In this document: positions 4,138 to 31,557 of the stretch, piece by piece | Numbering within the stretch: position 1 is the first letter of the stretch | Layout: each line of letters opens with the position of its first letter | NCBI GenBank assembly: GCA_022414725.1 | Contig: CM039465.1 | Span: 18,186,495 to 18,250,494, forward strand | Length of the DNA stretch: 64,000 bases | Direction of reading: 5' to 3' | Source of the DNA: Microglena sp. YARC | Lineage: Eukaryota; Chlorophyta; Chlorophyceae; Chlamydomonadales; Chlamydomonadaceae | Translations under genes and position numbers: made by a program | The notes under the pieces: generated by a model | Seen by the model: only the letters and a program-made list of their open reading frames with translations | Told to the model about the DNA's origin: nothing | Database searches by the model: none

Positions 4138-4171
4138 ATGGGGAAGAAAAATAAGAGCAAGAAGCCCACAG
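4138..4171 (+). CDS. Candidate first exon of the F-BAR/PH gene
   Basis: ATG after GGCAGC opens MGKKNKSKKPT, a typical short basic N terminus, and is followed by CACAG/GTGTAG. With this donor the exon ends in phase 1, which does not join cleanly to exon 2. A donor two bases later (phase 0) would fit an exon 2 acceptor at 5816. The start is therefore tentative. The bases AGAAGTGAGAGC shortly after the donor recur at the start of exon 2, which may be another edge copy. Confidence 0.45.
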
Positions 4172-7100
4172 GTGTAGAGAGAAGTGAGAGCCATAATGCA
4201 TGTGGGGAAGTGGTTGGGGAGGTTGCCAGGTTGGGCTTGGTTGGGGTGGGGGGTGTGGGGGGGGCTGATGCTCACACCAAGGTATCTGTACAGACCTTGT
4301 AAATTAGAATACATAATCCCGTTTCGGCGAGTTCAATGGATGATCATTTTGTGGACTGACGAAGGTGCTGGGTTTGAATCCTTACAGGTGCGCTTTAGTG
4401 TCCGCGGTCGCCGTCAACCGCCATGGTAGCTTTGCCCAGGTAAATTAGCAGACCGTTCTCTACCGCCATAATCCGGGGCTCCCTTAATACCACGCCCAAT
4501 CAGGCGTTCTTATAAGGATACATAATTTTAGGGACCGGCATATCATATAATGTTGACCAAAGGCGAGTATGATATCATATGATTAGGGTTGGGAAGCAAA
4601 CGTATATTTTTATTTTTATAAGCCGTATAAACGTATAAACGTATGCATAAAAACGTATATAAAAATTAGGTACTTCTTGAGAAAATACTTTTACATGGGT
4701 TTAAAGGTATTGCCGTGTAGCTAATTTCATTGGCATCACATATCAACTCTCAGACAAATAATCTGACAAGTTTAGGTTGTCCAAATCTCAGAAAAGAAAT
4801 CACGACCAGAAAGCGCGTCGGCCAAGAGGTGCGGCGGTGCCAATCTAAGGAAGCCATTAAATGCCAGTTGGTCTATTATATAACTGTATAAGTGTATAAT
4901 AATATAATAATATAAGTACATAACGGTATTGCAATATTTTCCATGTTCACATTGCACTAGGCTTGCACCATCAATCCTTCAAGCCCACATACGAGCACAG
5001 CTTGTGGAATGGAAGGCTAGGTGGCGCTCTGATATGTGTGCCATCCTGGCTATCTAGATCAACCTTTAGGCCAATTTTTTATAAAATTGTGCACGTGAAC
5101 GGTGATTTTTATTGCATATTGTGATATAGGAGATAAAAAGCTTTCCAATGAGCTATCTAAATCAAAAATATAATGAAAACCAAGAAAGTTAAGTGCCGGG
5201 ACGTGTGCTGTAATCCTCGAAGAACAGACTAAACGTTTTGTATACGACGTATGTAAGGTCGATTTGAGAAAAACTATACGGCGTATTTATATGTATAAAC
5301 GTATATTATACATTTATATGTCGGCCCAACCCTACATATGGTATCATACAAATTACATCATACGATATTGTTTATAAATGGTAACTTTAGCCTAGTTAGA
5401 CTGCCGACATCAAGGGACGCGGAACATTGGTGGAGTGTGTTGGCAACGGAACGACAGGTGGCAACGAAAATGGAGCTGATCGAAGCCAGTTAGTCACGAG
5501 ACAGTTGGCTGACGTGTAAGGCTTCAATTTTTCGGTCTGTTGGTCGGCCGGACAGACGCTCAGACGGACAAAGGGGTGAATCTAGGGGCTCCCGCCCCCA
5601 AGGAGGGGGGGCTCCGCAAAAAAAGTGAATGATAATATATTTTGCACCCAGGTAAGGAACAGCAGGGAAAGATGTGTGCAGAAGTGATTTTACGGTGGGC
5701 AAATGTCATTTTTTAGTTGTTTATGTACGGTAATATCTTTAAAAAGTATGAAACAAAAGTATGAAGATATTAATATCGTGATACTACGATTCGTAGCCTG
5801 TCAAGATACACGCCAGCACGCCAAAACCACCATGCTAACACGCCAACGCCAAAACCGCAACCCCAAAACGCCAACACGCCAAAATGTGTGCAGAAGTGAG
5901 AGCACCGAGGAGGAGCCCCGCAGTCCTGCCAGTGGCTCCGAATCCGCCCCCGACATTGACGACGTGGATGAGCCTGAACCCAGACAGCCTGGCGCTGCTG
6001 ACATGGCACATGATGCTGATGTTGCAAGCGAGGTCATCCAGGAGGCTGGACAGCCTGGCGCTGCTGACATGACACATGATGCTGAGGTTGCAAGCGAGGT
6101 CATCCAGGAGGCCGGACAGCCTGGCGCTGCTGACATGGCACATGATGCTGATGTTGCAAACGAGTTCACCCAGGATACTGCTGGGGCGCAGGCAAGCACA
6201 GAGCCTCCTGTTGACAATCCACTAAACGCCCTGATGGGCAGTGCTGATCAGCTTACAGCTCATATAGACCTCACAGAGGACCCCTTGGGCTCCCTACCCC
6301 TCCCTGCGGCTGACGCCCCGCCAGGTGGAGGGGGGCCTAGCCCAGTGGACCCCTTGCCCCCCTTGGGTGGCCCCCCACTGCTCGTCCAAGACCACTCACC
6401 AGAGGGTCCTGGGAGCCCGCCCCCTTTGGACTCTTCCTTTGTAGACCAATGGAGCACACACACAGCACATGGATACCCTCCAGAGAGAGACCATGACCCT
6501 CTACAGGGAGAGGGGGGGTCTAGCCCATTGCAGGAAGGTGTGGAAGAAGGTGCCACTAGACACGGGGAAGCTGGCCTGCTTGGAGCAAGCCAGGAGGAGT
6601 CAGATCTGCTGGGTACAGCACAGGGAGACACATATCTGATCAGTTCAAACCCCTTGGATGCTCTTACCTCTGATGGCAGTGCAGAAGTTTATGAACTTGA
6701 AGTTGAAGCATTTGTCCCTGTTGCTGACGATTCCCAGGAACCTGATGCTGTTGGCAGTACAGAAGTACCTGTTGCTGTTGACAGTACAGAAGTGCCTGTT
6801 GCTGTTGACAGAACAGAAGTACCTGTTGCTGTTGACAGTGCTGATGTACATGTTGCTGGTGGCAGTACAGGAGAAGCACATCTCTCTGATGCCCAGACTC
6901 TGAGTGGGGATATGGACCCGCTTGGGTGGGCAACATGTCAGGTGCAGGCCCCGCCCCTTGAGGACCCCCTTAGTCCCAGTAGCTCCTCCTGCCCTTTCAG
7001 CCCTATCAGCGATGCTGGAAGAGAGCTGCCACCCAGCCACCCTGAGGACCCCCTTAGTCCCAGTAGCCCCCCCTGCCCATTCAGCCCTATCAGTGATGCT

Positions 7101-10100
7101 GGCAGAGGACCGCCACCCACCCCCCCGGGCATGTCACTAGATGAGGCGACATTGCAGAAGCTGCGGCTACAGCAGCAGGTGAGAAATGCATTACATTATG
7201 TTGGATTACATTGCATCACATCACATTACATCACATCGCATTACATTACATTGTCATAGGTAGGCCATTGTTGGGTCCGAAGACAAGCCTGTGGCTACAG
7301 TAGCAGGTGAGAAATGCACTTCATTATGTTGGATTGCATTGCATCACATTACATTGCATCACATTGCATCGCATTGCATTACATTGCATTACATTGCATT
7401 GTCATCGAAAGGCCATTGTTGGTCCAAGAGAAGCCCTGAGGCTACAGCAGCAGGTGAGAAATGCATTACATTACGTTGCATTACATTACATTGCATTAAG
7501 TTACATTGCATTACATTACACTTCATTGCATTACATCACATTACATCATATCACATCACATCACATTACGTTACATTATATCACATGAGAATGACTGCTA
7601 TGACTGCTATACTGTGCTAGGCCACAATCTTAAAAACAAGCTTGCGTTGGAACTGTGGTGGGCCGGTGGTTGGAGGTGGTGGGCTGGTGTTTTTAGGTTG
7701 TGGGATGATGTGTGGAGGTGGTGGGGTGGTTGGGGGAGGTCTCAGACTTTGTATGAGCTCCAGTGTGCACATTGTGAAGAGTGTCGACACCACCAGAATG
7801 GCTCCACCCACCCTTGAAAACAAGCTCGCGTTGCAACTGTTGCTACACAACTGGAAAAAGTAATGAGAACGACTGGTGGAGCGTGGTATTTAGGGAACCC
7901 GTTGTACACGGGCAGAGAACGGTCTACCACCTTGACTGGACAAGCTACCATTGCGGTTTGCAGCGACCGTAGGGGGAATCGAACCCCCGACCCTTCGTCG
8001 GTTAAGCGATTTGGTGTACCACTGGACCAATTACACAACTGAACCTACAGAGAGCCGAAGAAGAAAAACAGTGCCCAGTAGAAGCATACAAACAGTATAT
8101 GCATACATACATATACATACATCTATACATACATATACATACATCTATACATACATATACAAACATCTATACATACATACATACATACATACATATACAT
8201 ACATCTATACATACATACATCTATACATACATACATACATACACACATACATACATACATACATACATACATACATACATACATACATACATACGTACAG
8301 TATAAGCATACATTGTTTTTTGTTGTCAAAGGTATTTCACCCCAGGAGGTGGGTGTCCTACACAAACCAGCGACATCAAGGATTCAGTTCGGTTGGCGTT
8401 GCCACTCCTAGAAAAGAGGAGGCGCAGTATGAAATATACGGCATCATGTTTTCTGAATATTAAAATACACATAAAGTACCCCTGTAAATACACGGTTAAT
8501 GTTACAATGTATTGGATTGGATAACATACGTGCACATACATGGGTAGTGTTTCGCTGTATTTGATAGCAGGCCTCCATATGCATAGGTTAGCTTGGCAAA
8601 TGTGTTTCATGGCAGGCTTCAACATGTACATAGGTTGGTAAAGAAATTTGATTTGATAGCAGGCTTAAACATACATGGTTTAGCACATGAGATCACCATA
8701 ATTTAGAATTTGAATTTGCATTCAGGTTCCTGAGACCCACTTCTGCATGTCTGAGTTCACCAACATTCAAAATTTGAATGTGTGATCAGGTTGCTGATAT
8801 CCGCTTCTGCATGTCTGAGATCACCATCATTCAAAAATTGAATTTGTAATCAGGTTCCTGAGACCCGCTTCTGCATGTCTGAGATCACCAACAATAAGAT
8901 GTTTGAGGAGGCGGCCAGGCGTGAACTGGAGCAGGCTAGTGGCATCAAGCCAGAAGCGGATAAAAACAAAGTTTCAAGTGAAGGTAAGGGACTTTGAGCC
9001 CAGTGTTTGTTTTTGGCAGAGCCCCCCCTTCTGGGCGGCAGGAGCCCCCAATGTTACCCTGTTGTCCGTTTGTTCGGCGACGAGACGAAGCCTGACGCGT
9101 CAGCCAACGGTCTCGTAACTATCTCGCTTCTGTTGCCACCTGTCACTCCGCTGCGAACACTCTCCGCTATTTTTTGCGTCGCATGCGACGCTGCATAGAA
9201 CTTGTCGACGATGCGTCGCCATTCTGTTGCTGCATGGTGACGCATGGGTCTGGCTAAAGTGTTCCTCGAACCCCTTGGGCTCTGTTCTCTGCCAGGGTAC
9301 TTCAAATGGCCAAATTGGCCAGCGCTTTAGTGCACTTGAAAACAAAAAAACTGCGCTTTGTAGTGCAAAAAGCGCAAAAATTGCTTGCTGCGCCCACGGG
9401 GGGTTGCAAAAAACTGCGCTTAAAGCGCAGAGGGGGTCAAAAAGTCAGCGCTCAAAAGCGCAAAAGCGCGCGCTTTGAATTACCCTGTTCTCTGCCATGC
9501 GATGGCTACACAACAATCCTGAAATCAGGCTAGAGTAGGCCAATTTGCTACTCAACCTGGCCTACATAAATCTGAATAAACAGCACTGAAGGGACAGTGA
9601 GACAGACAGTGAGCTTTTGAGTTTAAAGACTGTTTTGAAGTTGTAAGTTTAATTTTTTTTAAGTTTAAGACTGGAGCAGCCCCTACTAGTGGATTTCATC
9701 GAATTTTTGTTTCACCTAAAATTTGGTAAGCAGGCAGATTCCTCAAGGCTTTACCGGGAAGAAGAAGAATTGTCACAAGGTTCTATACGCCAAGTTTGGC
9801 GTCTTACTGTCTGCACATTGCAGTGAACAAGAACAACCCGTGTGAGGACCCCGGAAGCCAGGGATTTCTAGTTCACATGTCTCGGTGCAGATTCAAACCG
9901 GGGACTCCTACGGTTGTGGTGACCATTCTAACCCGTACACCTCTCGGGTAATGGGAAGCGGCCCATTATTCATGAGTGTAATATGCGGTATAGCCTTATA
10001 AGGTCTATTGTAAGGTAACAGTAGCATGGAACTGGGAATGGAAGTATGCTTCTGGATAATCAGCTTTTATATCCCGTTTAAGAATAATGCAGAAAGTAGT

Positions 10101-13100
10101 TGTAACGTAATCGCGTGTGGCAGTTGACTATTTTTTCAGCTGGAGCATTTTACAGTTGAAGCAGTTTTTCAGCTGGAGCAGCCTAGAGGGATCTAAGAGG
10201 AAGTGGGCCGATAAAGCTTCACGAAGGTGAAAGTGTGACACAATGGGTGAGATTGTGAGTTGACTGTGTTTTGTAGCCAAGCTGCTTTTAAATCTCTTGT
10301 TAACCTCGACCTCACCTTTTACACATATTTTGTATGTATTTATTTTATTATTCATATGTTATTGCATCTTCGACAATGACTAGGGACTGGCATATCATAT
10401 GATGTAGGACAGAGGCGAGTTTGATATGATATGATATGAAACAAACTGCATCATATGATATTGTTTATACATGGTAACTTTAGCCTAGTCAGACTGCCGG
10501 CATCATATGATATCATATTGTCGTTCCCTGAGCATTAGTATAAATGGCAGGCTCTGAACTTGTGTAAGTGGGATTCAAGCATTAGCAGGGTCCGAGGTTG
10601 TGGGGACAGGCATTCAATAATATTCATATGATATCATATTGCTGTTCCCTATCAATAACACATAAACACTGAGCAAAAAAACAGAAGCAAAACTGAACCA
10701 AGACAAACTGGAAAAGAAAAAAAAAACTGATCCAAGAAAATAAACTGAAAAAAAAAAAAAAATGAACCAAAAAAACTGAACCAAGAACACTTAACCTAAA
10801 ATGAACCAAAGAACCAAACCAAACTGAAAAGGAAAAAACTAAACCAAACTGAAAAAAAACTGAACAAAAAACGCTGAACAAAAAAACACTGAACCCAAAA
10901 TGCAGAACCAAAAAACACTGAACCCAAAATGCAGAACCAAAAAACACTGAACCAAAAATGCAGAACCAAAAAGAAACTGAACCAAAAATGCAGGCAACAA
11001 GAGCAGCGCTAGTGCATTAGCAAAGGGGATGGTCCATAAACGCTGAACACAAAAACAACAACAAAACTGAACCAAAAAAACGAACCAAAACGAACCGAAC
11101 AAAATATGCAGGCAAAAGGAGCAGCGCTAGTGCACCAGTAAAGGGGATGGTCCATAAACGCTGAAGACAAAAACAACAACAAAACAGAAAGAAAGAAAAA
11201 ACTAACTGAACAAAAAACTAAACTGAACCAAACTGAACTAAATAACATAACCGAACCAAACCAAAAAAACTAACTGAACCAAACTGAACCAAAAAAACAA
11301 AATGACAAAAAAAACTGAATCGAAAGATACTGAACCAAAAATGCAGGCAACAAGAGAAGCGCTAGTGCCCCAGCAAAGGGGATCGACCATAAACGCTGAA
11401 CACAAGAACAACAACAAACTGTACCAACAAACCGAACCAAACCAAAATGCAGGCAAAGGGGATGGTCCAAGTGCCTGGTGGCAGATTTTGATTCCATTTT
11501 TTTAACCTTCATTCTTGGTGATAGCTCCCTCGTACTCAGACGCCTGCAGCGCTATCGTTGTGCTTAGGTGGCAGATTTAAATTTTATTTTTGTTTTGATC
11601 CTGTCAATTGGCTGGTAGCTAATGAAAAGGAACATCTATCATAAATGCAGGCAGCGCTGGTGCACCAGCGAAGGGGATGGCCCAAGTGCCTGCCCCGCAG
11701 AAGTCAAGCGAGATACCTGGCGACCCCAGCTGGTGTTTGGTCCCCAAGGAGGTACCCAGTACAAGAGGCGAGGCCGGTGCCAAGGAGGGTGAATCTGAAA
11801 GCGTGCATGAGTCGGAACTGCAGCTCCAAGCTCGAGCGGTAATGGCTATTGACCGTGAGGTTGGGCAAGAGAGCTCTCTCATTCGTGAGGCGATTGAGAG
11901 TCTGACAACAAGGCTGGAGACAAGCAAACGGTAGGCTGTTTTTGGAGATTGTGGGCGCTAGGGGTGTTTGATATGAAGTAATGGCTATTGACCATAAGAT
12001 TGGGCGACAAAACTCTCTCATTCGTGAGGTGACAGTGAGTCTGACAACAAGGCTGGAGACAAGCAAACGGTAGTCTGTTTTTGGAGAATGTGGGCGCTAG
12101 GTGGTGTTTGTTATGAAGTAATGGCTATTGAATGTGAGCTTGGGCGACAGAGCTCTCTCATTCGTGAGGCGATTGAGAGTCTACGACAAGGATAGTGACA
12201 AGCAAACGGTAGGCTGGTTTGGGAAATTGTGGGCTCTAGTGGGTGTTTGTATTGTCGTGAAGTGAGGGTTATCGTCCGTGATAACAAGTTCTGTCCTACG
12301 TAAATGCATCTCAAATCTAGTAGACAGAGCATTACCCCCCCCTCTCATATTATACGGTGCAATATATATACATCAGTGCCAAGGTGCAAATTTTTGATTT
12401 TGCGAATTGGGATGCTTAGATGTGCTCTTGTGAGAATGTGACCTGGGTCTGCCTGGGTATATAATATGTATAATTTTAAGTACAATGAATGCTTAAATGT
12501 ACTCTCAAAGGCTTCATATCGTGACAAAAAGCATCAAATGACCGATTTGGTGCTATAAATACACATTTTTTTCACCACGCCGTGAAATAATTAGAACGGC
12601 AATTTGCTATGCTCATATGATGTCCAAATATTTTTTCAGTGCGACAACTATACCATGCAATCTTTAAAGGAATCTGAATTTTTACTATTATTTTGACATT
12701 TATCTAGAAATCTAACGTTTGTTTTTTATTTATTTCGTTTTGTTTCTTCCAGGTGTACACTCTTTCATGTAATACCAATGAACATGAACACGATTTTGGC
12801 TCGCGAAAATGAACACGATTTTCTGGGTGAAAAAGGCAAAAAAAGCCGACACACACACACACTCACACTGATACACTCACACTGATCTGCTGACACACAC
12901 GAATTAGGATGTTTATATGTTTCGAAATGGATGTTTTAAGAACATTTCTATTCCCAAACATATGTTACCACTCGTGTTGGTATACTTCTCATTTGCAATA
13001 TAAGCTTGTGGCACCCTTGAGTCGAATTCTTACCCGTGAATTGTTACGTTTTGGCCCAAAATACCCCAATACATATATAGTTACTCGTCCTGTAACCCAG

Positions 13101-13208
13101 ACCCGATGGTGGGCAGGCTGGGTGGGCGGACGCGGGGGTGGCTAACAGCCACATGGGCTACCTACTTGTGTGTGTGTATAATCTATATTATCAGAAATAT
13201 GTGTATAT

Positions 13209-13262
<54 letters not shown>

Positions 13263-15019
13263 ATATAATATATATATATTATATATATATATATTCTCCT
13301 CGAATACTGATGCTTCAGCGCACACTAGGGGAAGTTTTGCAAGATATAGCCAGAAGGCCTTACTGTGGATAATTAAAAATCGGGTAGCCATCTCCAAGAA
13401 TCCATGTATCGTATTTGATCATTTTAATAATCACCCTCGATATGCCTGGGCTTGAACGCAGGGCGTTAGAAGGTTTGCTCAGGCTCCTGCAGGGTATATG
13501 TCATTTAATGTATACCGGTAAATATTAAATATAAAAGCACATGCAATCTAAATATATGTATACAATATCGTATTTGATGATCTTAATAATCACCCTCCTT
13601 ATGCCTTGGCTTGATCGCAGGGCGCTTGAAGGTTTGCTCAGGCTCCTGCAGAGTATATGTCACACAATGTATACAATATAAATGTACATGCAGTATAAAT
13701 ATTTGTATACAATATTGTATTTGATGGTCAAAATAATCACCCTGCTTATGCCTTGGCTTGAACACAGGGCGCTTGAAGGTTTGCTCAGGCTCCTGCAGAG
13801 TATATGTCACACAATGTATACAATATAAACGTACATGCAGCATAAATATTTGTATACAATATTGTATTTGATGGTCAAAATTATCACCCTGCTTATGCCT
13901 TGGCTTGAACACAGGGCGCTTGAAGGTTTGCTCAGGCTCCTGCAGAGTATATGTCACACAATGTATACAATATAAATGTACATGCAGTATAAATATTTGT
14001 ATACAATATTGTATTTGATGGTCAAAATAATCACCCTGCTTATGCCTTGGCTTGAACACAGGGCGCTTGAAGGTTTGCTCAGGCTCCTGCAGAGTATATG
14101 TCACACAATGTATACAATATAAATGTACATGCAGTATAAATATTTGTATACAATATTGTATTTGATGGTCAAAATAATCACCCTGCTTATGCCTTGGCTT
14201 GAACACAGGGCGCTTGAAGGTTTGCTCAGGCTTCTGCAGAGTATATGTCACACAATGTATACAATATAAATGTACATGCAGTATAAATATTTGTATACAG
14301 TATTGTATTTGATGATCTCAATCATCACCCTGCTTGTGCCTTGGCTTGAATGCAGGGCGCTTAAAGGTTTGCTCAGGCTCCTGCAGAGTATATGTCACAC
14401 AATGTATACAATATAAATGTACATGCAGTATAAATATTTTGTATACAATTTGTATTGATGGTCAAAATTATTACCCTGCTTATGCCTTGGCTTGAACACA
14501 GGGCGCTTGAAGGTTTGCTCAGGCTCCTGCAGAGTATATGTCACACAATGTATACAATATAAATGTACATGCAGTATAAATATTTGTATACAATATTGTA
14601 TTTGATGGTCAAAATAATCACCCTGCTTATGCCTTGGCTTGAACACAGGGCGCTTGAAGGTTTGCTCAGGCTCCTGCAGAGTATATGTCACACAATGTAT
14701 ACAATATAAATGTACATGCAGTATAAATATTTGTATACAGTATTGTATTTGATGATCTTAATCATCACCCTGCTTGTGCCTTGGCTTGAATGCAGGGCGC
14801 TTGAAGGTTTGCTCAGGCTCCTGCAGGGTATGGCTGCTGCTGAGTCTACCTATGCTACCGCTATGCTCAACGCCTCTAAGCTCAACATCGGAGACCAAGG
14901 TTATGGTCCGAACTTGACGGTGAGTTAGTATGAATGTAGGAAACCATCCGTCTGTCCATATGTCCATATGTCTACTCATTCATTTGTTACTTGACACGTG
15001 CATCCCTTCATATCCCCAG

Positions 15020-15056
<37 letters not shown>

Positions 15057-24000: not shown

Positions 24001-27000
24001 CCCAACCAACCCCAACCAAAGACATCTTGAAGGTCTTGCACTCCTCAACCAACCCCAACCAACCCCAACCGAAGACATCTTGAAGGTCTTGCACTCCTCA
24101 ACCAACCCCAACCAACCCAACCAAAGACATCTTGAAGGTCTTGCACTCCTCAACCAACCCCAACCAACCCCAACCAACCCCAACCAAAGACATCTTGAAG
24201 GTCTTGCACTCCTCAACTCTTCATGAACCACCCTTTGTCAAAGTTTAGGTGCAAATGCCCTTAAACTATGCTATACTGTATGTACGTTAGTACAGTCCAG
24301 AGGTAGCCAAATAGGTTAAAGGGACTTGACCAACCATGATATCAGGAGGGTCTAAGAATGATGGGGGAAACACTGATGAAACTGAACCCCCAAACAAGCA
24401 TTTTACTGCCGAGGGCCGGAGTCCTTGCTAGCCGGCGTGATAATTTAATTGTACTATAGATTTTTGAAGGTTAGACAAGGTAGCCTAGCTGGCTACCCCT
24501 GAGCTGTAACATGCATACATACATACATCTCATGTTTATTTATTTATATATTTGTGTATTTTTTTATCTATTTATGTATTTATTTATGGTAGCCTGTGTC
24601 TCCCTCAACATCACGCCCCGTCTCAAGGTGTAACATTTCTGTATTTGTTTATTTATTTATCCATTTGTGTATTTATTCACGAGCCGGTATCCCCCTCAAC
24701 ATCAATCCCCGTAACATTTATTTATTCATTTATTTATTTGTTTGTTTGTTTGTTTGTTTGCTTGTTTTCGAGCCTGTGTTTCCCTCTGCCTGCAGGAGCT
24801 TGGGGCCATTTCAACACAAGCGTACTCCACAGATATCCAGATCAACCTGTTTGACATCCTTATGTGAGTTCCAAGGTGCCAGTGTTCTGTGCTGAAGTGG
24901 GTGGGTGGGTGAATGCTTATGTGGGTGGGTGGGTGGATGCTTAAATGGGTGGGGGTGTGTGGGTGTGCTATGGACTAGCAGGAGCTTGGGCCATTTCAAC
25001 GCAAGCGCACAGATATCAGCTCAACCTGTTTGACATCCTGATGTGAGTTCAAGTGCTGTGTATTGCGCTTTCGTGGGTGGGTGGGTAGGTGGGTGGATGC
25101 TTATATGGGTGCATGGGTGGGTGGGTGCATGCTTATATGGGTGAATGCTTATATGGTGTGTGCATGGTTGTATGTGTGGGTGGGTGGATGAATGCTTATA
25201 TTGGTGGGTGGGTTGGGTGGATGGATGCTTTATATGGGTGGGGGATGTAGGTGCACTATGGACCTGGGCAGGAACTTGGTCATTTCAACACAGCGCACTC
25301 CACAGTTTAGTCAGCCAACTGGTTTGAATCCGTGTGGTGAGTTTCAAGGTGCCAGTGTTATGCGCAAATACATGCGTGGGTGGGCGGTGAGTACGGTGGG
25401 TGTGCTATGGCATATCGTATCGTCGTCTTGACTAACTTTGATTTTGTTGCGGTATGTGAGAGGGATAACTGCCAAGGCATAGTTAGTTGTGTGAGAGTCA
25501 ACGCAGATAGTGTGAGAGAGTGTGAGTAAGTTGTGTGAGAGTCAACACAGATAGTGTGTGTGAGAATAGAGTGTGAGTGGAGGTGTGGGAGTATTTGTGT
25601 GAGAGTCAAAACAGATAGTGTGATAGTGTGAGAGTGTGGAAGTAGTTGTGTGAGAGTCAACAGATATTGTGATAGTGTGTTGTGTGAAATAACAAGTGTG
25701 GAGTAGTGTGTGAGAGTCCACACAGATATGTGAAGTTTGAGTGTTGAGTAGTTGTGTGAGAGTCAACACAGATAGTGTGAGAGTGTGAGAGTAGTTGTGT
25801 GAGAGTCAACACAGATAGTGTGAGAGTGTGGGAGTAGTTGTGTGAGAGTCAACACAGATATTGGATAGTGTGAGAGAGTGTAGGAGTAAGTTGTGTGAGA
25901 GTCAACACAGATAGGTGTGAGAGTGTGAGAGTAAGTTTGTGTGAGATTCAACACAGATAGTGTGAGCAGTGTGAGAGTGCTGAGAGTCTCACACAGATAG
26001 GTGTGAGTGTGGGACAGTGTTGTGTGAGACAATCAGAAGTGTGAGAGTGTGAACACAGAGTAAGGTGTGTGAGAGTGGGTGGAGTAGTTGTGTGAGAGTC
26101 AACACAGATAGTGTTGAGAGTGTGGGAGTAGTTGTGTGAGAGTACACAGATATTGTGATTAGTGTGAGAATGTAGGAGTGTAGTTGTGTGATGAGTTGTG
26201 TGAGAGTCAACACAGATAGTTGTGAGAGTGAGAGTAAGTTGAAGTCAAACAGATAGTGTGAGAGTTGTGAGAGGTGTGAGAGTAGTTGGTGTGAGAGTCA
26301 ACACCAGATAGTGTGAGAGTGTGAGAGGTTGTGAGTAGTTGTGTGAAAGTGAGAGTCAGTGTGTGAGAGCACAGATAGTGTGAGTGTGAGTAGTGTGAGA
26401 GTGTGAGAGTAGTTGCTTGAGTACACAGATAGTGTTGAGAGTGGAGTAGTGTGTGAGAGTCAAACACAGATAGTGTGACGAGAGTGTGGGAGAGTAAGTT
26501 GTGTGAGAGTCAACACAGATAGTGTGAGAGTTGTGGGTAGAGTAGTTGTGTGAGAGTCATCCACAGATAGTGTGAGAGTGTTGAGTGAGTGTCGTTTAGT
26601 TCAACACAGATAGTCTGAGTAGTGTGAGTAGTTGTGTGTCAGAGTCAACACAGATAGTGTGAGAGTGTCGGGAGAAGTTTGTGTGAAGTTCAACACAGAT
26701 AGTGTGAGAGTGTGGGAGTAGTTGTGTGAGAGTCAACACAGATAGTGTGAGAGTGTGGGAGTAGTTGTGTGAGAGTCAACACAGATAGTGTGAGAGATGG
26801 GGAGGAGTTGTTGTGTCAACACAGATAGTGTGAGAGTGTGGGAGTAGTTGTGTGAGAGTCAACACAGATAGTGTGAGAGTGTGGGAGTAGTTGTGTGAGA
26901 GTCAACACAGATAGTGTGAGAGTGTGGGAGTAGTTGTGTGAGAGTCAATCTACAGAAATAGTGTGAGAGTGTGGGAGTAGTTGTGTGAGAGTCAACACAG

Positions 27001-29116
27001 ATAGTGTGAGAGTGTGGGAGTAGTTGTGTGAGAGTCAACACAGATAGTGTGAGAGTGTGGGAGTAGTTGTGTGAGAGTCAACACAGATAGTGTGAGAGTG
27101 TGGGAACGAGTAAGTTGTGTGAGAGTCAACACCAGTTTCTCCAGATAGTGAGAGTCAACACAGATAGTGTTGAGAGTGGTGGGAGTGTTTATACCCCGAG
27201 TCTCCGTGTGAGAGTGTGAAGGTTGAAGTCATACACAGCATATTGTGCATGAAGGGTGAGAGTAGTTTTGTTGTGAGAGTCAACACAGTTTTCCAGATTA
27301 ACCTGATTTGACCATCCCTATGGTGTGTTCCAAGGGTGCCAGTATCGTTGCTTACGTGGGTTGGGCGAATGCTTATATGCGGTGGCGGGATGGATGCCCT
27401 ATATAAGAGGGGGTTTGGGCGGTGAATGGCTTATATGTTGGGTAGTCCATGGCATGGTCTATATGGGAGGGGGGTGGAGGGGCATGTGAATGCTCTCTAT
27501 AGGGTGGGTGGGGTATGCTTATATGGGTGGGTGGTGCGCATGGTTATATAGTGGCGTGGGTGGTGAATGCTTCTCATGGTGTGCGATATGATGGGTGGGT
27601 GAAAGCTTGTATGGGTGGCAGTGTAAGTGGGTTGCTGTATAAGTTGGTATTTGTGGTGAAGCTTGTATGGGTGGGTGGTTGTGATGCTTATATGTGTGTG
27701 TGTGAGTGGGGGGGGGGGGGGGGGGGGCTATGGACCTGCAGGACCTTTGGGCCATTTGAACACAGGCCACACTCATCAAATATCGCAGCTCAACCTGTTT
27801 GGCATTCCTCGGGTGAGTTCCAAGGTGCCAGAGTCCTGTGCATGCTATGGTGTGGGTGGTGTGAGTGGGATGAACATGTGCAATCAGTACGGTGTGCGCG
27901 CATGGTTATATGGGTGTGGTGTGGTGAATGGTTAATATGATGTGGGGGCATGGTTTGTATGGCCGTGGGTGAGGTGGTGTTGGTGGGGTGGTGGACGCAA
28001 TGATTTATATGGGTGGGTGGCGCTGGCGTTGGTATCTTTGAAGCTGACTGACTCACTGTCTGACCCATTCAATCTCTCAGTGACTAACTGACTAACCGCC
28101 TGAATGAATGAATGAATGAATGTCTCACCCATCCACACACTCACTCACTTACTCACTCACTCACTCACTCACTGTACCCACTTTTTCTAAACTTGCATCG
28201 CCAGCATCTGCAGCCACCCAGGCAGCTGAGTCCGTTGCCAAGCAGCCCCCCCCCCCCCCCCCCGCCCCCCCCCCCCCCCCCTCCACCCCCCCCCCCCCCC
28301 CCCACCCTCTCCCCCCAGTGACTGACTGACACACTCACCCTCACTCAACCCTCCTTTTCTAACCATGCAGACCCTTCCTTTGCAGCCACCAGGCCCGCAG
28401 CTGAGTTCGTGGCAAGCAGCACCCCCCCCCCCTCACCCCCCCCCCCCCTCTCCCCCCCCCCCCTCCCCCCCACCCCCCCCCCACCCCCACCCCCCCCCCC
28501 CCCCCCCCCTTCCAGATTGACTGACACTCACTCACTCACTCACTCACTCACTCACTCACTCACTCACTGGACCCACCTTTTCTAAACATGCAGGCCGCTT
28601 CCTCTGCAGCCACCCGCGGCAGTCCTGAATCCAATGGCCAAGCAGCACCCCCCCCACCCCACCCCACCCACCCCACCCAGATTGACTGACTGCAAACTCA
28701 CTTACTCACTCTCTCACTCTCTCTCACTTACTCTCTCTCTCTCACTTACTCACTCTCTCACTCTCTCTCACTTAGTCACTCTCTCTCACTAACTCAATCT
28801 CTCTCAATTACTCACTCTCTCTCTCACTTACTCACTTACTCCACTCAATCTTACTCTCTCTCTCTACTTACTTACTCACTCTCTCTCACTTACTCACTCT
28901 CTCACTCTCTCTCACTTACTCACTCTCTCTCACTTACTCACTCTCTCACTTACTCACTCTCTCTCACTTACTCACTCTCTCACTTACTCACTCTCTCTCA
29001 CTTACTCACTCTCTCTCACTTACTCACTCTCTCTCACTCTCTCTCTGGACCCACCTTTTCTAAACATGCAGGCCTTCCTCTGCCGCCACCAGGCAGCTGA
29101 GTCCATGGCCAGCAGC

Positions 29117-29161
<45 letters not shown>

Positions 29162-31557
29162 CAGATTGACTGACTGACACACTCACTCACTCACTCACTT
29201 ACTCACTCACTCACTCACTCACTCACTCACTCACTCACTCACTCACTCACTCACTCACTCACTCTCTCTCTCACTGGACCCACCTTTTCTAAACATGCAG
29301 GCCTCCTCTGCCGCCACCCAGGCCGCTGAATCCATGGCCAAGCAACACCCCCCCCCTGATTGACGGCTTGTGCCAGGAGCCCCTGTGCAGCTCCGAAATC
29401 ATCCGCCAGTCTGGCATGCAGTACTGGCACAACAAGAGCAGCAGCTTGATGACCCCCTTCAAGCAGGGGGCCTCATGGGTGGAGGCGCACTTTGTTCTCA
29501 CTAGGGCTGGCTTCTTGTATTGGTTCAAAACCATGGAAGACGTGGTCCCACAGGGGATGCTCAGCCTGTCCAGGTGCGCCTAAGTATAGCATAGTATAGG
29601 ATAGCAAAGGATAGCAAAGGATAGCGTAGTATAGTATGTATAGTATAGTATAGTATAAGTATAGTTATGTATAGTATAGTATAGTATATAGTATAGTACA
29701 GTATAGTATAGAATAGTACAGTGAAGTATAGTATAGTTCAGTGTAGCATAGCATGGCATAGTATAGAGTAGTATAGTATAGTATAGTATAGTATTGTATT
29801 GTATTGTTTAGTTTAGTTTAGTATAGCATAGTATCGTACGATATAGTATAGCATAGTACAGTATTGTATAGTATAGTATAGTATAGTATAGCATAGCATA
29901 GCATAGCATAGCATAGTACAATATAGTAGAGTGGAGTAGAGTAGAGTACAGTAGAGTATGTTAGCCAAGGGGGGCTCATGGTGGCGGCACCTTTGTCCTA
30001 CTAGGGCTGGCTTCTTGCATTGGGTCAAACCATGGAAGTCGTGGTCCACAGGGGGATGCTCAGCCTGTCCAAGGTGCGCAATACTGTCTGTACTGGCCCA
30101 TGGCCATGTACAAGTGCAAGTACGCTCATATTCACACATGTGCTAGTATAGTGCAAGTATGCCTGGTACGTCTGCGCAAGTATGCCTGCACAATACTGTC
30201 TGTACTGGCCCATGTGGTCATGTACGAGTGCAAGTATGCTCATATTCACTCATGTGCTAGTATAGTGTGTATTTATGCAAGTATGTATGTATGTGCGTAT
30301 GAATAGTATGTATGTATGAATGCTGAGCCTGTCCAGGTGCACAATACTGCCTGTACTGGCCCATGTGCCCATGAACAAGTGCAAGTATGCTCATATTCAC
30401 ACATGTGCTAGTATAGTGTGTGTGTATGTATGTATGTATTTATGTATGTATTTATGTATGTATGTATGTATGTATGTATGTATGTATGTATGTATGTATG
30501 CTTGCATGCATGCATGCATACATGCATGCATGCATGTATGTTTACGTTATGAATAGTATGAATGTATGAAATGCTGATCCTGTCCAGTTGTGTAGTACTG
30601 TTGTGCTAGCAATGTGCAAAAATCAAGTATGCTCGTATGCAAATCTGTGATCATAGTATAGTGTGTAAATATATAAATAGTACGCCTTATTATGAGGCGT
30701 GATGTTGAGGGGGCCAGCCCGTTGGCTTGCACTGGGGCCAACCACCAACCAACCACCAACCAACACCAACGAGGCGTGAGGTTGAGGGAGCCAGCCCGTT
30801 GGCTTGCACTGGGTGCCCAACCACCAACCAACCACCAACCAACACCAACGAGGGCGTGAGGTTGAGGGAGCCAGCCCGTTAATGGCTTGCACTTGGGTGT
30901 CAACCACCAAGCAACCACCAACCAACACCAACGAGGCGTGAGGTTGAGGGGGCCAGCCCGTTGGCTTGCACTGGGGGCAATCACCAATTATAAGAATAAA
31001 GTACCCTCTAAGAACGCCATTTCACTGACAGATGCAAATATATTACCCTCTAAGCACGGTATTTCACTCCCAACCCAACCCAACCCAACCCAACCCAACC
31101 ACTACCCATACACTACCCAACCCAACTACGTACCCACCCCCGCTACCCCACTACCACACAGCTGCGGGAGTTTGAGACGGGCAGCCCCTCCTTTGCTTCA
31201 ACATTATGGATGATGCTAGCCATCGTGTCAAACATGGGCAAGGCACTCCCACCCCACCCTAAACCCAGGCCAAACCACCCACTGCACCCCACTACCCACC
31301 CCCACTTACCCACCCCCGCTACCCCCCACTACCACAGATGTGAGTTTGAGACGGGCACACCCCCTTGCTTCAACATTGTTGAGGATGCAGCCATCGCGTC
31401 AAACATGGGCAAGGCTGGAGGCTGGCTGGGTGGTGTGCTGCAACGCAAGATGACTTTCCAAGCGCCGGATGTAGACGAGTGCTGTGAGTGGGCTCTGGCA
31501 ATTCGAGAGGCCATCTCGGTGGCACATGGCCGGGCACTGGCCTTCGAAGACAACTAG
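4138..31557 (+). CDS. F-BAR domain and PH domain protein, ten-exon gene model
   Basis: Exons: 4138-4171 (tentative), about 5817/5894-7178, 8899-8983, 11651-11930, 14796-14919, 20067-20290, 22741-22998, 24796-24863, 29301-29573, 31338-31557. All junctions from exon 2 to 10 have matching phases except for a frame break inside exon 7. The product is about 950 residues: a basic start, a long acidic Pro-rich disordered region (exon 2), a linker, an F-BAR-like helical domain (exons 4-8: TTRLETSKRALEGLLRLLQG, AAAESTYATAM), a Pro-rich linker, then a PH domain (exons 9-10: WVEAHFVLTRAGFLYWFK, late-helix WALAIREAI). Families with this layout bind phosphoinositides and shape membranes; here that is inference. 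The introns hold tandem copies of nearly every exon edge. Confidence 0.8.
4330..4512 (+). mobile_element. SINE family A, diverged copy
   Basis: It contains a pol III B-box-like GGGTTTGAATCC, then the family tail (ACCGCCATGGTAGCTTTGCC, CTCCCTTAATACCACGCCC, CAGGCGTTCTTAT). It matches the SINEs at 7854, 17287 and 21458 and is older by divergence. Confidence 0.7.
4526..5415. mobile_element. MITE family E interrupted by element F
   Basis: The left part (4526-4588, GGGACCGGCATATCATATAA) and right part (5332-5415, TATTGTTTATAAATGGTAAC) together match the intact MITE E at 10382-10529. Between them lies element F (about 4589-5331) with inverted ends TTAGGGTTGGG and GGCCCAACCCTA and an AT-rich body of ACGTATA motifs. 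CATATG occurs on both sides of F, as expected for a target duplication. Confidence 0.75.
5416..5690. repeat. Dispersed repeat I, shared in inverse orientation with 9005-9290
   Basis: Segments GACAGTTGGCTGACGTG, GACAGGTGGCAACG and GGGGCTCCCGCCCCCAAG have reverse-complement counterparts at 9005-9150. The right end (ATGTGTGCAGAAGTGA, 5670-5686) repeats the acceptor and start of F-BAR/PH exon 2. Confidence 0.55.
5817..7178 (+). CDS. F-BAR/PH gene exon 2: acidic, Pro-rich disordered region
   Basis: The exon is open to CAGCAG/GTGAGA at 7178 (phase 0). The acceptor could be CCAG at 5816 or TGTGTGCAG at 5893. The product is rich in Asp, Glu, Pro and Ser. It carries three in-frame 66-nt copies (QPGAADMAHDADVASEVIQ-type, 5985-6175), 24-nt copies of STEVPVAVD (6755-6850) and two 84-nt copies of EDPLSPSS..CPFSPISDAGR (6958-7110). 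It ends MSLDEATLQKLRLQQQ, predicted helical. No enzyme motif is visible; it looks like a flexible tether or a docking region, by inference only. Confidence 0.8.
7179..7610. repeat. Donor-side echoes of exon 2 within a CATTA-rich array
   Basis: CTACAGCAGCAGGTGAGAAA at the real donor recurs as CTACAGTAGCAGGTGAGAAA near 7296 and as CTACAGCAGCAGGTGAGAAA near 7441. Each is followed by variable ACATTGCATTACATCACATT repeats. Confidence 0.85.
7854..8032 (-). mobile_element. SINE family A, tRNA-derived, with target-site duplication
   Basis: On the minus strand an A-box-like GGTCCAGTGGTACACC and a B-box in GGGGGTTCGATTCCCCC resemble a tRNA, followed by the family tail. ACACAACTG flanks both sides (7845-7853 and 8033-8041), a 9-bp target duplication that marks retroposition. 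Confidence 0.85.
8090..8302. repeat. (CATA)n microsatellite
   Basis: Long CATA/CATACATC tetranucleotide run. It generates spurious Tyr/Ile/His/Thr frames. Confidence 0.95.
8690..8898. repeat. Acceptor-side echoes of exon 3
   Basis: About 68-bp units containing CTTCTGCATGTCTGAGATCACC are repeated three to four times. The last unit runs into the real acceptor (ACAATAAG/ATGTTTGAGG). Earlier units carry ACATTCAAAATTTGA at the corresponding place. Confidence 0.75.
8899..8983 (+). CDS. F-BAR/PH gene exon 3
   Basis: An 85-nt exon between AATAAG and GTAAGG, phase 0 in and phase 1 out. It encodes MFEEAARRELEQASGIKPEA and more, continuing the helix begun at the end of exon 2. Phases agree with exons 2 and 4. 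Confidence 0.7.
9005..9290. repeat. Dispersed repeat I
   Basis: GC-rich segment with GAGCCCCCCCTTCTGGGCGG and TTGCTGCATGGTGACGCATG. Matching pieces lie inverted at 5416-5690, and related pieces at 55585-55650 and 59865-60055. Confidence 0.55.
9293..9487. mobile_element. hAT-type MITE, family D, copy 1
   Basis: Ends CAGGGTAC and TACCCTG, flanked by 8-bp TTCTCTGC on both sides (9285-9292, 9488-9495). TIR form and 8-bp duplication are as in hAT elements. The interior has GCGCTTTAGTGCACTTGAAA and a CGCCCACGGGGGGTTGC core shared with 32535-32720. Confidence 0.9.
9760..9960 (-). mobile_element. SINE family B, copy 1
   Basis: On the minus strand GAGAGGTGTACGGGTTAGAA and CCGGTTTGAATCTGC resemble pol III A and B boxes. 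The whole block, including TCTATACGCCAAGTTTGGCG and CAGGGATTTCTAGT, recurs at 60355-60537. Confidence 0.75.
10382..10529. mobile_element. MITE family E, intact copy
   Basis: Bounded by AGGGACTGGCATATCATATG and GATATCATATTGTCGTTCCC, imperfectly inverted. The internal landmarks TAACTTTAGCCTAGTCAGAC and CTGCCGGCATC are shared with 38390, 44632 and 58245. A terminal fragment lies near 10625-10650. Confidence 0.85.
10660..11475. repeat. AAACTGAACC array with acceptor-side echoes of exon 4
   Basis: A purine-rich (AAACTGAACCAAAA)n array encloses four copies of the exon 4 start: ATGCAGGCAACAAGAGCAGC then GCTAGTGC..CAGC/TAAAGGGGATGG (near 10988, 11106, 11340 and a short one at 11446). Each carries the acceptor ATGCAG. 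Confidence 0.85.
11651..11930 (+). CDS. F-BAR/PH gene exon 4: linker and start of the F-BAR helix
   Basis: Acceptor AAATGCAG, donor CAAACG/GTAGGC, phase 1 in and phase 2 out. It encodes SAGAPAKGMAQVPAPQ, an acidic linker, then EVGQESSLIREAIESL and TTRLETSK, which leads into RALEGLLRLL of exon 5. This spacing fits the first helix of an FCH/F-BAR domain. Confidence 0.8.
11955..12215. repeat. Donor-side echoes of exon 4
   Basis: TAATGGCTATTGACC.. through GACAAGCAAACGGTAGTCTG is repeated at about 11980-12085 and 12119-12225, each with a GGTAG donor and the following intron sequence (TGGGCGCTAGG). The copies have drifted from the coding frame. Confidence 0.9.
12226..13430. other. Intron sequence, AT-rich, no gene seen
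   Basis: Low-complexity AT-rich DNA with a short (CA)n run at 12848-12870, a doubled AATGAACACGATTTT near 12780-12825, and (TA)n at 13209-13294. Confidence 0.7.
13430..14795. repeat. Acceptor ladder: about 147-bp tandem array of the exon 5 edge
   Basis: Nine copies precede the real acceptor. Each unit has GCTTATGCCTTGGCTTGAAC, then CAG, then the exon start GGCGCTTGAAGGTTTGCTCA and GGCTCCTGCAG. After that it diverges (AGTATATGTCACACAATG) where the true exon continues GGTATGGCTGC. Copy starts are near 13461, 13619, 13767, 13915, 14060, 14208, 14356, 14502, 14649 and the real one at 14796. Long minus-strand open frames here are repeat products. Confidence 0.95.
14796..14919 (+). CDS. F-BAR/PH gene exon 5: F-BAR helix 1
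   Basis: Acceptor GAATGCAG, donor TTGACG/GTGAGT, phase 2 in and 0 out. It encodes RALEGLLRLLQG, MAAAESTYATAMLNAS and KLNIGDQGYGPNLT. The alternation of Leu with AAAESTYATAM matches the start of F-BAR domains, where a ..EE.YAK.L.. stretch is usual. Confidence 0.85.
14920..15506. other. Intron: TA tract, poly-G, poly-C and unassigned sequence
   Basis: (TA)n at 15022-15052 is followed by a G run. A C run of about 26 lies at 15175-15200. No gene is seen between. Confidence 0.7.
15507..17045 (-). mobile_element. Helitron-like element H1 with decayed 23-residue repeat coding region
   Basis: On the minus strand the element ends in a GC hairpin (GGCC..GGCC) followed by CTATACTAG and a T, as in Helitron 3' ends. 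The 5' side shares AAAGAAATCATGGTCGTGG with H2. Minus-strand frames at 16313-16687 and 16390-16523 encode degenerate units of about 22-23 residues (AARSEEQRHADNLASIR; AAQPEELRHAHNLARRRER), interrupted by frameshifts. Such Arg/Ala-rich repeats resemble STPR-type repeats often found near Helitron proteins. No Rep or helicase motif is present, so it is non-autonomous. The 5' boundary is blurred by (TA)n. Confidence 0.7.
17079..17290. repeat. Donor-side echoes of exon 5
   Basis: A nearly whole copy of exon 5 (ATGGCTGCTGCTGAGTCTAT to TTGACGGTGAGTTG, missing 12 nt) is followed by the same intron start. A third, shorter copy lies at 17249-17290 (GAGACCAAGGTGGTGGTCTG). H1 lies between the real exon and the first copy. 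Confidence 0.9.
17287..17504 (-). mobile_element. SINE family A inside an exon 5 echo
   Basis: GTGAGTTTT flanks the element on both sides (17278-17286, 17505-17513). Minus-strand internal promoter: GGTCTAGTGGTAGACCAGA and GGGGGTTCGACTCCCCC. The duplicated target is itself the donor sequence of the echo, so the echo predates the insertion. Confidence 0.9.
17640..17775. repeat. Echo 1 of exon 6
   Basis: GATGCCATGTCAACCCTAGC through GTGCATCGCTTCAAGTG copies the first 118 nt or so of exon 6. No acceptor precedes it here. Confidence 0.9.
17795..20060. repeat. CTCC-rich array with two acceptor-side echoes of exon 6
   Basis: About 2.2 kb of (CCCTCCCTCC ACTACTCAATT) variants, an exaggerated polypyrimidine tract. 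Embedded copies of acceptor plus exon 6 start lie at 19288-19425 (CTCCAG/GATGCCATG, one G missing from GGGCG) and 19670-19800 (CTGCAG/GTTGCCATG). Open frames rich in Pro/Ser/Leu are artefacts. Confidence 0.9.
20067..20290 (+). CDS. F-BAR/PH gene exon 6
   Basis: Acceptor CCCTCCAG, donor CCTGCAG/GTGAAT, phase 0 in and 2 out. It encodes DAMSTLTGLPGVVSQSHRCL, HAQLTTQAMTCTQLVQRFK, AAASNSPTEAAKLRKAVE and SAMTSAFREHAAACR, a helical stretch as expected of the F-BAR core. Only this copy of four continues past TTCAAG into coding sequence with a donor, so it is the functional one. Confidence 0.85.
20291..21160. repeat. Donor ladder: about ten echoes of the exon 6 end
   Basis: Units of about 80-95 bp carry ..CTCCAGCATTC..GGAGCATGCATCAGCC then TGCAGGTGAATGGATTATGA, that is, exon 6 end, donor and intron start. 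They recur at roughly 20350, 20480, 20570, 20660, 20750, 20840, 20925, 20995, 21065 and 21140. Confidence 0.95.
21190..21445. repeat. 60-bp tandem repeat of the exon 6 core
   Basis: Four copies of CATGTCAACCCTAGCTGGCT..GTGCACCAGTCGCACC..CATGCATGC, each 60 bp, so 20 codons (STLAGLPGVV HQSHRCMHAM). All are open in the exon frame, although this is intron sequence in the model. Confidence 0.9.
21458..21671 (+). mobile_element. SINE family A with 12-bp target duplication, inside an exon 6 echo
   Basis: TGCACCCAGCTG lies at 21446-21457 and again at 21672-21683. The 214-bp insert has GGTCAGGTGGTAGACCAGAC (A-box region) and GGGGGTTCGACTCCCCC (B box). Exon 6 echo sequence continues on the far side (GTGCAGTGCTTCAAGGCAGC), so the SINE jumped into an existing echo. 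Confidence 0.95.
21790..22070. repeat. AACCAAACAGGACA minisatellite
   Basis: Units of about 15-30 bp (AAACCAGACTAACCAAACAG GACAATC) in about ten copies. Confidence 0.9.
22160..22740. repeat. Acceptor-side echoes of exon 7
   Basis: AGGCTGTTAGACACCGTGCT, the acceptor plus start of exon 7, also occurs at about 22416 and 22588, with a shorter CGCTGTTAGACTC at 22241. Between them lie CAGACAGACAAGCTAGCTAG-type repeats. Confidence 0.9.
22741..22998 (+). CDS. F-BAR/PH gene exon 7, with a frame break
   Basis: Acceptor TTCTTTAG, donor CAGCAA/GTAAGT. The frame entering from exon 6 gives LLDTVLADRSSGRTSGGPQL, DPWSTEGKLVHGPQRAWL then TGA. The downstream frame gives ERAFLKRTALLVENLEL, TRLRAGKQVASVGTDSYLA and CMMPIQQ. 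One missing base near 22840-22850 would join them. The echo at 23066-23198 keeps the downstream part open (AERDFLKRTALLVEDLELT), so the break may be a sequence error, an undetected micro-intron or a real lesion. Confidence 0.7.
22999..23400. repeat. Donor-side echoes of exon 7
   Basis: A long copy at 23066-23198 ends ATCCAGCAAGTAAGTAAGTG. A shorter copy at 23281-23365 ends CATGCAGCAAGTAACATG. Fragments of dispersed repeat G (TTACAGTCCAGGGG) lie in between. Confidence 0.9.
23520..24225. repeat. CCAACCCCAA / TCTTGAAGGTCTTGCACTCC minisatellite
   Basis: About fourteen units of 40-75 bp: ACATCTTGAAGGTCTTGCAC, TCCTCAACCAACCCC, then a variable number of CAACCAACCCC. The C-rich strand could form i-motif or G-quadruplex-like structures. 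Confidence 0.95.
24510..24775. repeat. (ATTT)n microsatellite
   Basis: TTTATTTATTTG/TTTG tetranucleotides interrupted by two copies of GCCTGTGT/GCCGGTATC..CCCTCAACATCA..CCCCG. Confidence 0.9.
24796..24863 (+). CDS. F-BAR/PH gene exon 8
   Basis: A 68-nt exon, acceptor CCTGCAG, donor CTTAT/GTGAGT, phase 0 in and 2 out. It encodes ELGAISTQAYSTDIQINLFD and IL, with the next codon completed as ATG by exon 9. Confidence 0.8.
24870..25470. repeat. GGTGGGTG array with two whole-exon echoes of exon 8
   Basis: GGGTGGGTGGATGCTTATAT repeats enclose copies of exon 8 with both splice sites: 24975-25060 (AGGAGCTTGGGCCATTTCAA .. GACATCCTGATGTGAGTTC) and about 25262-25355. Small deletions disrupt their frames. 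Confidence 0.9.
25490..27290. repeat. 43-bp GTGTGAGAGTCAACACAGAT satellite
   Basis: About 1.8 kb of AGTTGTGTGAGAGTCAACAC / AGATAGTGTGAGAGTGTGGG units, roughly 35-40 copies, most regular at 26690-27110 and ragged elsewhere. No coding potential. Confidence 0.95.
27290..27850. repeat. Further echoes of exon 8 and GGGTGG repeats
   Basis: A decayed copy at 27292-27345 (CCAGATTAACCTGATTTGAC) and a better one at 27728-27835 (CTGCAGGACCTTTGGGCC .. GGCATTCCTCGGGTGAGTTC). GGTGGGTG repeats and a G run (27711-27727) surround them. Confidence 0.85.
28085..29300. repeat. (CTCA)n, poly-C and acceptor-side echoes of exon 9
   Basis: Four echoes of ..GCAGCCACC.AGGC.GCTGAGTCC..GCCAAGCAGC followed by C runs lie near 28200, 28370, 28590 and 29068. 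The true exon at 29301 has the same stretch with only nine C. Between them are (CTCA)n and (CT)n tracts; C runs reach tens of bases at 28245-28315 and 28420-28510. Confidence 0.95.
29301..29573 (+). CDS. F-BAR/PH gene exon 9: Pro-rich linker and first half of the PH domain
   Basis: Acceptor AACATGCAG, donor CTGTCCAG/GTGCGC, phase 2 in and 2 out. It encodes PPLPPPRPLNPWPSNTPP, LIDGLCQEPLCSSEIIRQSG, MQYWHNKSSSLMTPFKQ, GASWVEAHFVLTRAGFLYWF and KTMEDVVPQGMLSLS. The order 'G.L..W.K, W.E..FVLT..GFLYWF' is the beta-1 to beta-4 pattern of PH domains. The frame passes through the nine-C run intact. Confidence 0.85.
29580..29960. repeat. (TATAG)n microsatellite
   Basis: Pentanucleotide AGTAT/TATAG runs with GCATA and GAGTA variants. 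Confidence 0.95.
29965..30610. repeat. Donor-side echoes of exon 9 and (GTAT)n
   Basis: Copy at 29965-30085 (CTAGGGCTGGCTTCTTGCAT .. GCTCAGCCTGTCC). Shorter copies at 30322-30350 and 30570-30600 end CTGTCCAGGTGCACAATACT and CTGTCCAGTTGTGTAGTACT. (GTAT)n lies at 30280-30310 and 30420-30545. TACTGGCCCATG blocks recur. Confidence 0.9.
30668..30990. repeat. Dispersed repeat J amplified in tandem (four copies)
   Basis: Units of 70-85 bp: GAGGCGTGAGGTTGAGGGAG, CCAGCCCGTTGGCTTGCACT, GGG..CAACCACCAACCAACC. Single copies lie at 41390-41455 and, inverted, at 54274-54350. Confidence 0.9.
31060..31337. repeat. CCAAC repeat and acceptor-side echo of exon 10
   Basis: (CAACC)n at 31070-31110. An echo at 31158-31245 runs from CCACACAG/CTGCGGGAGTTTGAGACG to AACATGGGCAAGG, with frame-breaking differences from the true exon start at 31338. 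Confidence 0.9.
31338..31557 (+). CDS. F-BAR/PH gene exon 10: end of the PH domain, stop codon
   Basis: Acceptor TACCACAG, phase 2 in. It encodes CEFETGTPPCFNIVEDAAIA, SNMGKAGGWLGGVLQRKMTF, QAPDVDECCEWALAIREAIS and VAHGRALAFEDN, then TAG at 31555-31557. The CF.IV strand and the Trp in ..EWALAIREAI fit the last strands and C-terminal helix of a PH domain. Confidence 0.85.

Follow-up and report, generated by a model that had tools for sequence, protein, structure and literature searches.

A gene of Microglena sp. YARC raises the question of why partial copies of its exon edges should lie in tandem beside the intact exons, and whether such copies originate from a process acting at splice junctions or from local duplications placed without regard to them. 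The window is the whole stretch of 64,000 nucleotides that was analyzed (bases 18186495-18250494 of contig C4), taken from a nuclear genome of 568 Mb whose contigs C1-C6 measure 19-195 Mb. The copies of exon edges are called echoes below.

The window gene and its echoes

The predicted gene model spans positions 5894-31557, where ten exons (E2-E11) are joined into 915 open codons followed by a stop. A putative first exon at 4138 offered no in-frame join and was excluded from the model; no echo of the ATG at this position was found in the window. The predicted protein contains a PH domain (31.3 bits, above the curated cut-off of 25.1), and its match to the F-BAR (FCH) domain scores 14.7 bits, below the curated cut-off of 27.8. 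Nine homologs were retrieved for the part of the protein encoded at 14796-31557, and all six of those carrying an organism name belong to green algae (Astrephomene, Tetrabaena, Monoraphidium, Tetradesmus and two Trebouxia), which makes a chlorophyte host very probable.

Each edge was represented by a 60-bp segment centered on it, and an echo was recorded when a local match with a score of at least 20 and at least 8 bp matched on each side was present within 3 kb. The exons of the gene model and the echoes are as follows.

5894-7178, plus strand: exon E2, long N-terminal exon
7179-7470, plus strand: two E2 donor-edge echoes, exon part 21-23 bp
8688-8883, plus strand: 64-bp array of E3 acceptor-edge echoes
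8884-8983, plus strand: exon E3, donor without echo
10969-11480, plus strand: E4 acceptor-edge echoes
11651-11930, plus strand: exon E4
11931-12249, plus strand: 139-bp array with two E4 donor-edge echoes, exon part 92 bp
13432-14795, plus strand: 147-bp array with nine E5 acceptor-edge echoes, exon part 36 bp
14796-14919, plus strand: exon E5
17080-17290, plus strand: distant E5 echoes, including the donor edge
17646-19800, plus strand: copies of E6 sequence amid TCCC-rich simple repeats, the copy at 17646 seen by eye only
20067-20290, plus strand: exon E6
20291-21151, plus strand: 87-bp then 72-bp array with ten E6 donor-edge echoes
22211-22640, plus strand: three E7 acceptor-edge echoes
22741-22787, plus strand: exon E7, donor without echo
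22871-22998, plus strand: exon E8
23071-23198, plus strand: whole-exon echo of E8, in-frame and open, 3 amino-acid changes in 43 codons
24796-24863, plus strand: exon E9
24980-27850, plus strand: E9 echoes, whole-exon and donor-edge
28169-29150, plus strand: four E10 acceptor-edge echoes, exon part up to 56 bp
29301-29573, plus strand: exon E10, first part of the PH domain
29970-30090, plus strand: E10 donor-edge echo, seen only when the limit is relaxed to 6 bp per side
31132-31240, plus strand: E11 acceptor-edge echo
31338-31557, plus strand: exon E11, end of the PH domain and stop codon
31633-31690, plus strand: echo of the stop-codon edge, without splice site

When both orientations were tested, direct echoes were found at 15 of the 19 internal exon edges and inverted ones at none (0/19). 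Looser limits (score 18, 6 bp per side) raised the count to 17/19 by adding the E2 acceptor and the E10 donor, and even then no echo was detected for the E3 and E7 donors. The copies of E6 at about 19270 and 19645 contain its acceptor edge. The original prediction, which had announced echoes at 14 or more of some 17 internal splice sites and one to ten copies per edge, is thereby confirmed, the number of copies per edge ranging from 1 to 10.

Local direct copies are also frequent away from the edges: they were detected at 52% of the complex intron positions of the gene (n=614; inverted 1.3%), at 50% of its exon-interior positions (n=111; inverted 0%) and at 38% of 1269 positions of the window outside the gene. 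Direct echoes lie far beyond chance: the inverted orientation, which serves as an internal control with identical composition, gives matches at only 0-2% of the complex exon-interior, intron and outside positions. Tandem repeats are present inside E2 as well (5983-7126), the three listed having periods of 66, 27 and 84, each a multiple of three. The periods of intron arrays, such as 64, 139 and 147, do not share this restriction, unlike the E2 repeats. Dispersed tRNA-like sequence was seen by eye at 7870-8040, 17300-17500, 21460-21680 and about 31570 and is perhaps a SINE; tRNA genes were rejected as an identity for these stretches, since ARAGORN calls none in the window.

Exon edges of other genes

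The TCP1/HSP60 chaperonin genes were located in the genome, 12 stretches were taken and the actin gene of the window was added. Splice sites were modeled with a purpose-written protein-to-genome aligner, using guides from the PDB or from algal relatives. Edges with an uncertain model were dropped, together with one acceptor of stretch L017 that lacks AG, and L015 yielded no internal edges. Echoes were found at 28 of 65 usable edges in the 11 gene models besides the window gene, which contradicts the idea of a single exceptional gene. Pooling of all 12 gene models gives 43 echoed edges out of 83, a count from which 5 of 88 edges are excluded for low complexity; most intron rates likewise exclude low-complexity positions (about a third). 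The echo rate depends on the gene: 6 of 8 usable edges are echoed in each CCT1 gene and none of 6 in the CCT gamma stretch, and among the models in which at least two edges were tested, the window gene shows the highest echoed share. In the PRP8 gene, for which only the match table was used, two partial copies of an exon start lie upstream of the exon.

Among 2706 complex intron positions of the 12 gene models, 52% have a direct copy and 3% an inverted one; in 17% the direct copy contains exon sequence, which suggests that introns enlarge by taking up copies of their own exon edges. A further nine stretches were scanned, two adjacent to the window and seven elsewhere: eight of them contain complex positions, with direct copies at 3%-95% in individual stretches and at 41% of the 1118 positions overall. 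Positions 1-10000 of L009 (contig C6) consist almost entirely of a 36-bp satellite. On the minus strand of the window, at 40637-41254, a coiled-coil gene displays an exon start, VVEA.RQAMRQKE, repeated in one open frame, which is probably another acceptor-edge echo.

The CCT1 paralogs L010 and L012, whose exons are mostly 78-83% identical (70% for one exon), provide six homologous edges for comparison. Three are echoed in one paralog only (the E2 acceptor in L010, the E2 donor in L012 and the L010 exon 4 acceptor); both paralogs are echoed at two edges and neither at one. At least the three single-paralog echoes were gained or lost after the gene duplication, and the two common ones may be older. 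As half of the six edges differ, the turnover of echoes is fast. An additional intron is present in L012 (3008-5067) and missing at the same place in L010, and the L012 model includes an in-frame stop; the intron may have been gained or lost, or the gene may be decaying.

These data also bear on the trustworthiness of the assembly. An artefactual origin of the arrays is practically negligible in our estimation: the copies are diverged, with a mean identity over 111 alignments of 0.88 in exon parts and 0.86 in intron parts, the echo pattern is repeated on five large contigs, and the two CCT1 paralogs differ in their echoed edges.

Array structure and position relative to splice junctions

Direct head-to-tail copies, with units mostly of about 100-200 bp, are very numerous and are found in introns and at stop codons as well as at exon edges. 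Successive copies are 100-199 bp apart in 72 of 125 spacings, and the spacing is near-constant in several arrays (147 bp for E5), other edges having a single echo. The nearest spacing has a median of 172 bp in edge arrays (n 43) and 142 bp in intron-only arrays (n 105; Mann-Whitney P 0.06), so that unit lengths are broadly alike in both. The exon part, measured at 41 partial-exon edges, is evenly spread from 11 to 117 bp (Kolmogorov-Smirnov test against uniform, P 0.56). The inner breakpoint is often common to an array, with 36 bp of exon in 9/9 E5 echoes and 43 bp in 5/6 echoes of one L012 edge; such arrays are therefore probably expansions of one founding event. The 147-bp E5 unit, the one unit searched genome-wide, gave 10 matches, all within its own array. 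A transposon or introner origin was rejected for this unit, which has no dispersed copies at other loci. Microhomology at unit ends was also checked, but clean two-copy cases were too few, and many matches overran the unit by 10-20 bp. The arrays are direct and head-to-tail, confined to their locus (for the unit searched) and in several cases regular in unit length, as are local tandem duplications and minisatellites.

The original prediction had offered two readings, namely very frequent local tandem duplication with selection, or a process starting at splice junctions. In the latter, the duplications would be started or favored at junctions or near exons, for instance by RNA-DNA hybrids or by spliceosome-linked transcriptional breaks. 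The window gene, with 15 of 19 edges echoed, speaks for it; this gene was chosen as striking and has to be kept out of estimates of edge excess, and the detection, copy-weighted and founder values below are given without it. Detection at -91, -61, -31, the edge and +31 bp is 0.46, 0.49, 0.39, 0.43 and 0.36, respectively. No peak appears at the junction, and neighboring segments that are purely intronic show no more duplication than the junction does. Echoes also occur at 3 of 9 stop-codon edges, where there is no splice site; each stop was located by extending the reading frame past the last aligned codon, and 7 of the 9 have only 330-630 bases downstream in the locus. L012, without a trusted stop downstream, was excluded from this test. 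The stop-codon edges of L017 (8375) and L020 (4677, both on the gene strand) are echoed downstream even though the trusted splice edges of these stretches are not (0/2 and 0/6).

Raw echo coverage is 0.43-0.52 for edges and 0.52 for introns, the intron rate being inflated because every array is counted many times. When weighted by copy number, coverage is 0.43 for edges and 0.20 for intron interiors (0.23 with dispersed repeats masked), with a bootstrap interval of 0.06-0.38 for the difference. This excess survives both the masking of dispersed repeats and a split by intron length. The corresponding edge/interior ratio is 1.9-2.6 for scores from 20 to 45 and 1.4 at score 50, where 3 of 65 edges remain, and simulations without junction preference give 0.57-1.66. 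In these simulations duplications were placed at random, exons were kept fixed and detection was unchanged; they contained no low-complexity DNA and only crude insertions. The conclusion drawn is therefore that random duplication with selection accounts for the pattern, an excess near exons that reaches about twofold being possible. Founder positions occur at a rate of 0.40 at 30-60 bp from the edge, 0.15-0.16 at 100-420 bp and 0.34 at 420-1200 bp.

Counting of array families was the second measure, comparing edge overlap with random placement as the original prediction had proposed. The observed/expected ratio is 0.68-1.13 (0.82-1.13 for scores 20-35, and 0.82-1.12 with other complexity limits), and the same pipeline applied to simulations returns 0.51-0.73 under the null and 1.44-1.64 when 30% of the events are junction-directed. 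The ratio taken at face value indicates no enrichment, but the measure reads low under random placement and a mild edge excess thus stays possible. For scores 20-35 the ratio is higher than the simulated null and lower than the junction-directed model, and the simulations place the truth between the copy-weighted and the family-count results.

A process at junctions is unlikely on this evidence. The roughly twofold copy-weighted excess above the simulated null and the founder rate, which drops between 0-60 bp and 100-420 bp from the edge, do favor it. Against it stand the flat detection profile, the uniform exon breakpoints, the similar unit lengths inside introns and the echoed stop-codon edges, even in gene models whose trusted splice edges are not echoed; the original alternative finds no support on these points. 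Random placement leaves over a possible excess near exons, at most about twofold. One could speculate, though we think it rather improbable, that exon-flanking stretches reaching about 100 bp from coding edges, whether splice or stop, undergo duplication at up to twice the rate of intron interiors, which would link the 100-200 bp units to transcription, nucleosome phasing or Okazaki-fragment-sized replication intermediates at exons, with the spliceosome routinely ignoring up to ten near-copies of the true junction.

The explanation that we hold with good confidence is frequent random local tandem duplication combined with selection keeping one working junction, to which a process started at junctions need not be added; the simpler reading of the original prediction is thus upheld. 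The proposed mechanism can be summarized as follows. Local segments would be duplicated at random, whether by replication slippage, by microhomology-mediated copying or by unequal exchange, and many arrays would expand after the first duplication. When a duplication spans a donor, the intact exon would keep the first copy; when it spans an acceptor, the last. The remaining copies would land in the intron, be spliced out and drift. Duplications internal to an exon would mostly disrupt the protein and be lost, in-frame ones excepted. Selection would in this manner turn random duplications into tidy echoes beside intact exons, and introns would grow. The E2 repeat periods, as multiples of three, are counted in favor of random duplication with selection; the copy-weighted edge excess, the founder profile and a family-count ratio above the simulated null count against it.

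Fate of the copies and comparison with known systems

Retention of the copies as alternative exons or alternative splice sites would be a different fate. Its best case is E8, whose copy at 23071-23198 differs by 3 nonsynonymous and 9 synonymous changes and is open. As E8 measures 128 bases, both copies together break the frame and one is usable at a time; the pair is therefore a candidate for mutually exclusive exons. Among whole-exon copies, the open frame was checked for this pair, which fits such a pattern. The original claim that only the copy beside the intact exon stays in frame needs correcting for this copy. Of the 45 echoed edges, 41 have partial-exon copies only, and 55 of 58 indels in the exon parts are not multiples of three and break the frame. 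Mismatches at the three codon positions (0.109, 0.085 and 0.157) show positions 1 and 2 varying almost equally freely, the profile that a freely changing copy should give when set against a constrained exon whose own changes fall mostly at third positions. On sequence grounds, the echo copies are unconstrained.

The splice dinucleotide had been expected in every echo. It is not universal: over all gene models GT is kept in 43/55 and AG in 59/68 aligned echoes (102/123 together). This is above the retention of nearby intron dinucleotides (258/385 for GT, 321/473 for AG) and could be taken as a sign of alternative use; however, the conserved reference splice site inflates the apparent retention. 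Because the true site is itself conserved, these values indicate neither upkeep nor purging of echo sites. Overall, alternative use is very improbable as a general account of the copies.

It could also be proposed that the introns were born from tandem duplication of exon segments, the echoes being birth marks. A mechanism of this type is already known, as described in PMC3443670. Within the present data, the in-frame sequence AGAAGTGAGAGC flanks the doubtful first exon on both sides (by eye), and the additional L012 intron is absent from its paralog. Nevertheless, in introns with two trusted edges, the heads and tails do not resemble the head of the next exon or the tail of the previous one (best scores 9 and 10, shuffled maximum 12), and we give this proposal hardly any credence.

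This genome is a natural laboratory for splice-site choice: in many introns the true junction has 1-10 close copies as competitors, the majority with its GT or AG and a portion of its exon. Gene finders and short-read aligners are probably led astray by such copies.

Several known systems resemble the arrays in part. Internal gene duplication, reportedly treated by Gao and Lynch in 2009, is a tandem genomic duplication within genes and likewise yields tandem copies of segments containing exon sequence and splice sites. In contrast, the copies described here are partial-exon edges, for the most part intronic debris; they accompany roughly one tested edge in two and form multi-copy arrays in housekeeping genes. 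Minisatellites consist of local head-to-tail units of variable copy number. All of these properties are shared by the arrays, whose units in addition often contain coding sequence and a splice-site dinucleotide. A further known system of tandem exon copies is that of mutually exclusive exon arrays (cf. PMC6071210). E8 and its copy are alike to these, whereas the large majority of echoed edges have partial-exon copies with mostly frame-breaking indels. Intron gain by tandem genomic duplication, as presented in PMC3443670 and PMC4974935, also duplicates segments with splice-like sequence, but the introns tested here bear no sign of such an origin. Tandem duplication of exon segments carrying splice sites is by itself established (PMC3443670). 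A literature search, whose coverage left out most subscription papers, returned no description of a pattern such as this one. The unusual aspect is the density: roughly every second exon edge tested is echoed, in genes with housekeeping functions and often by multi-copy arrays.
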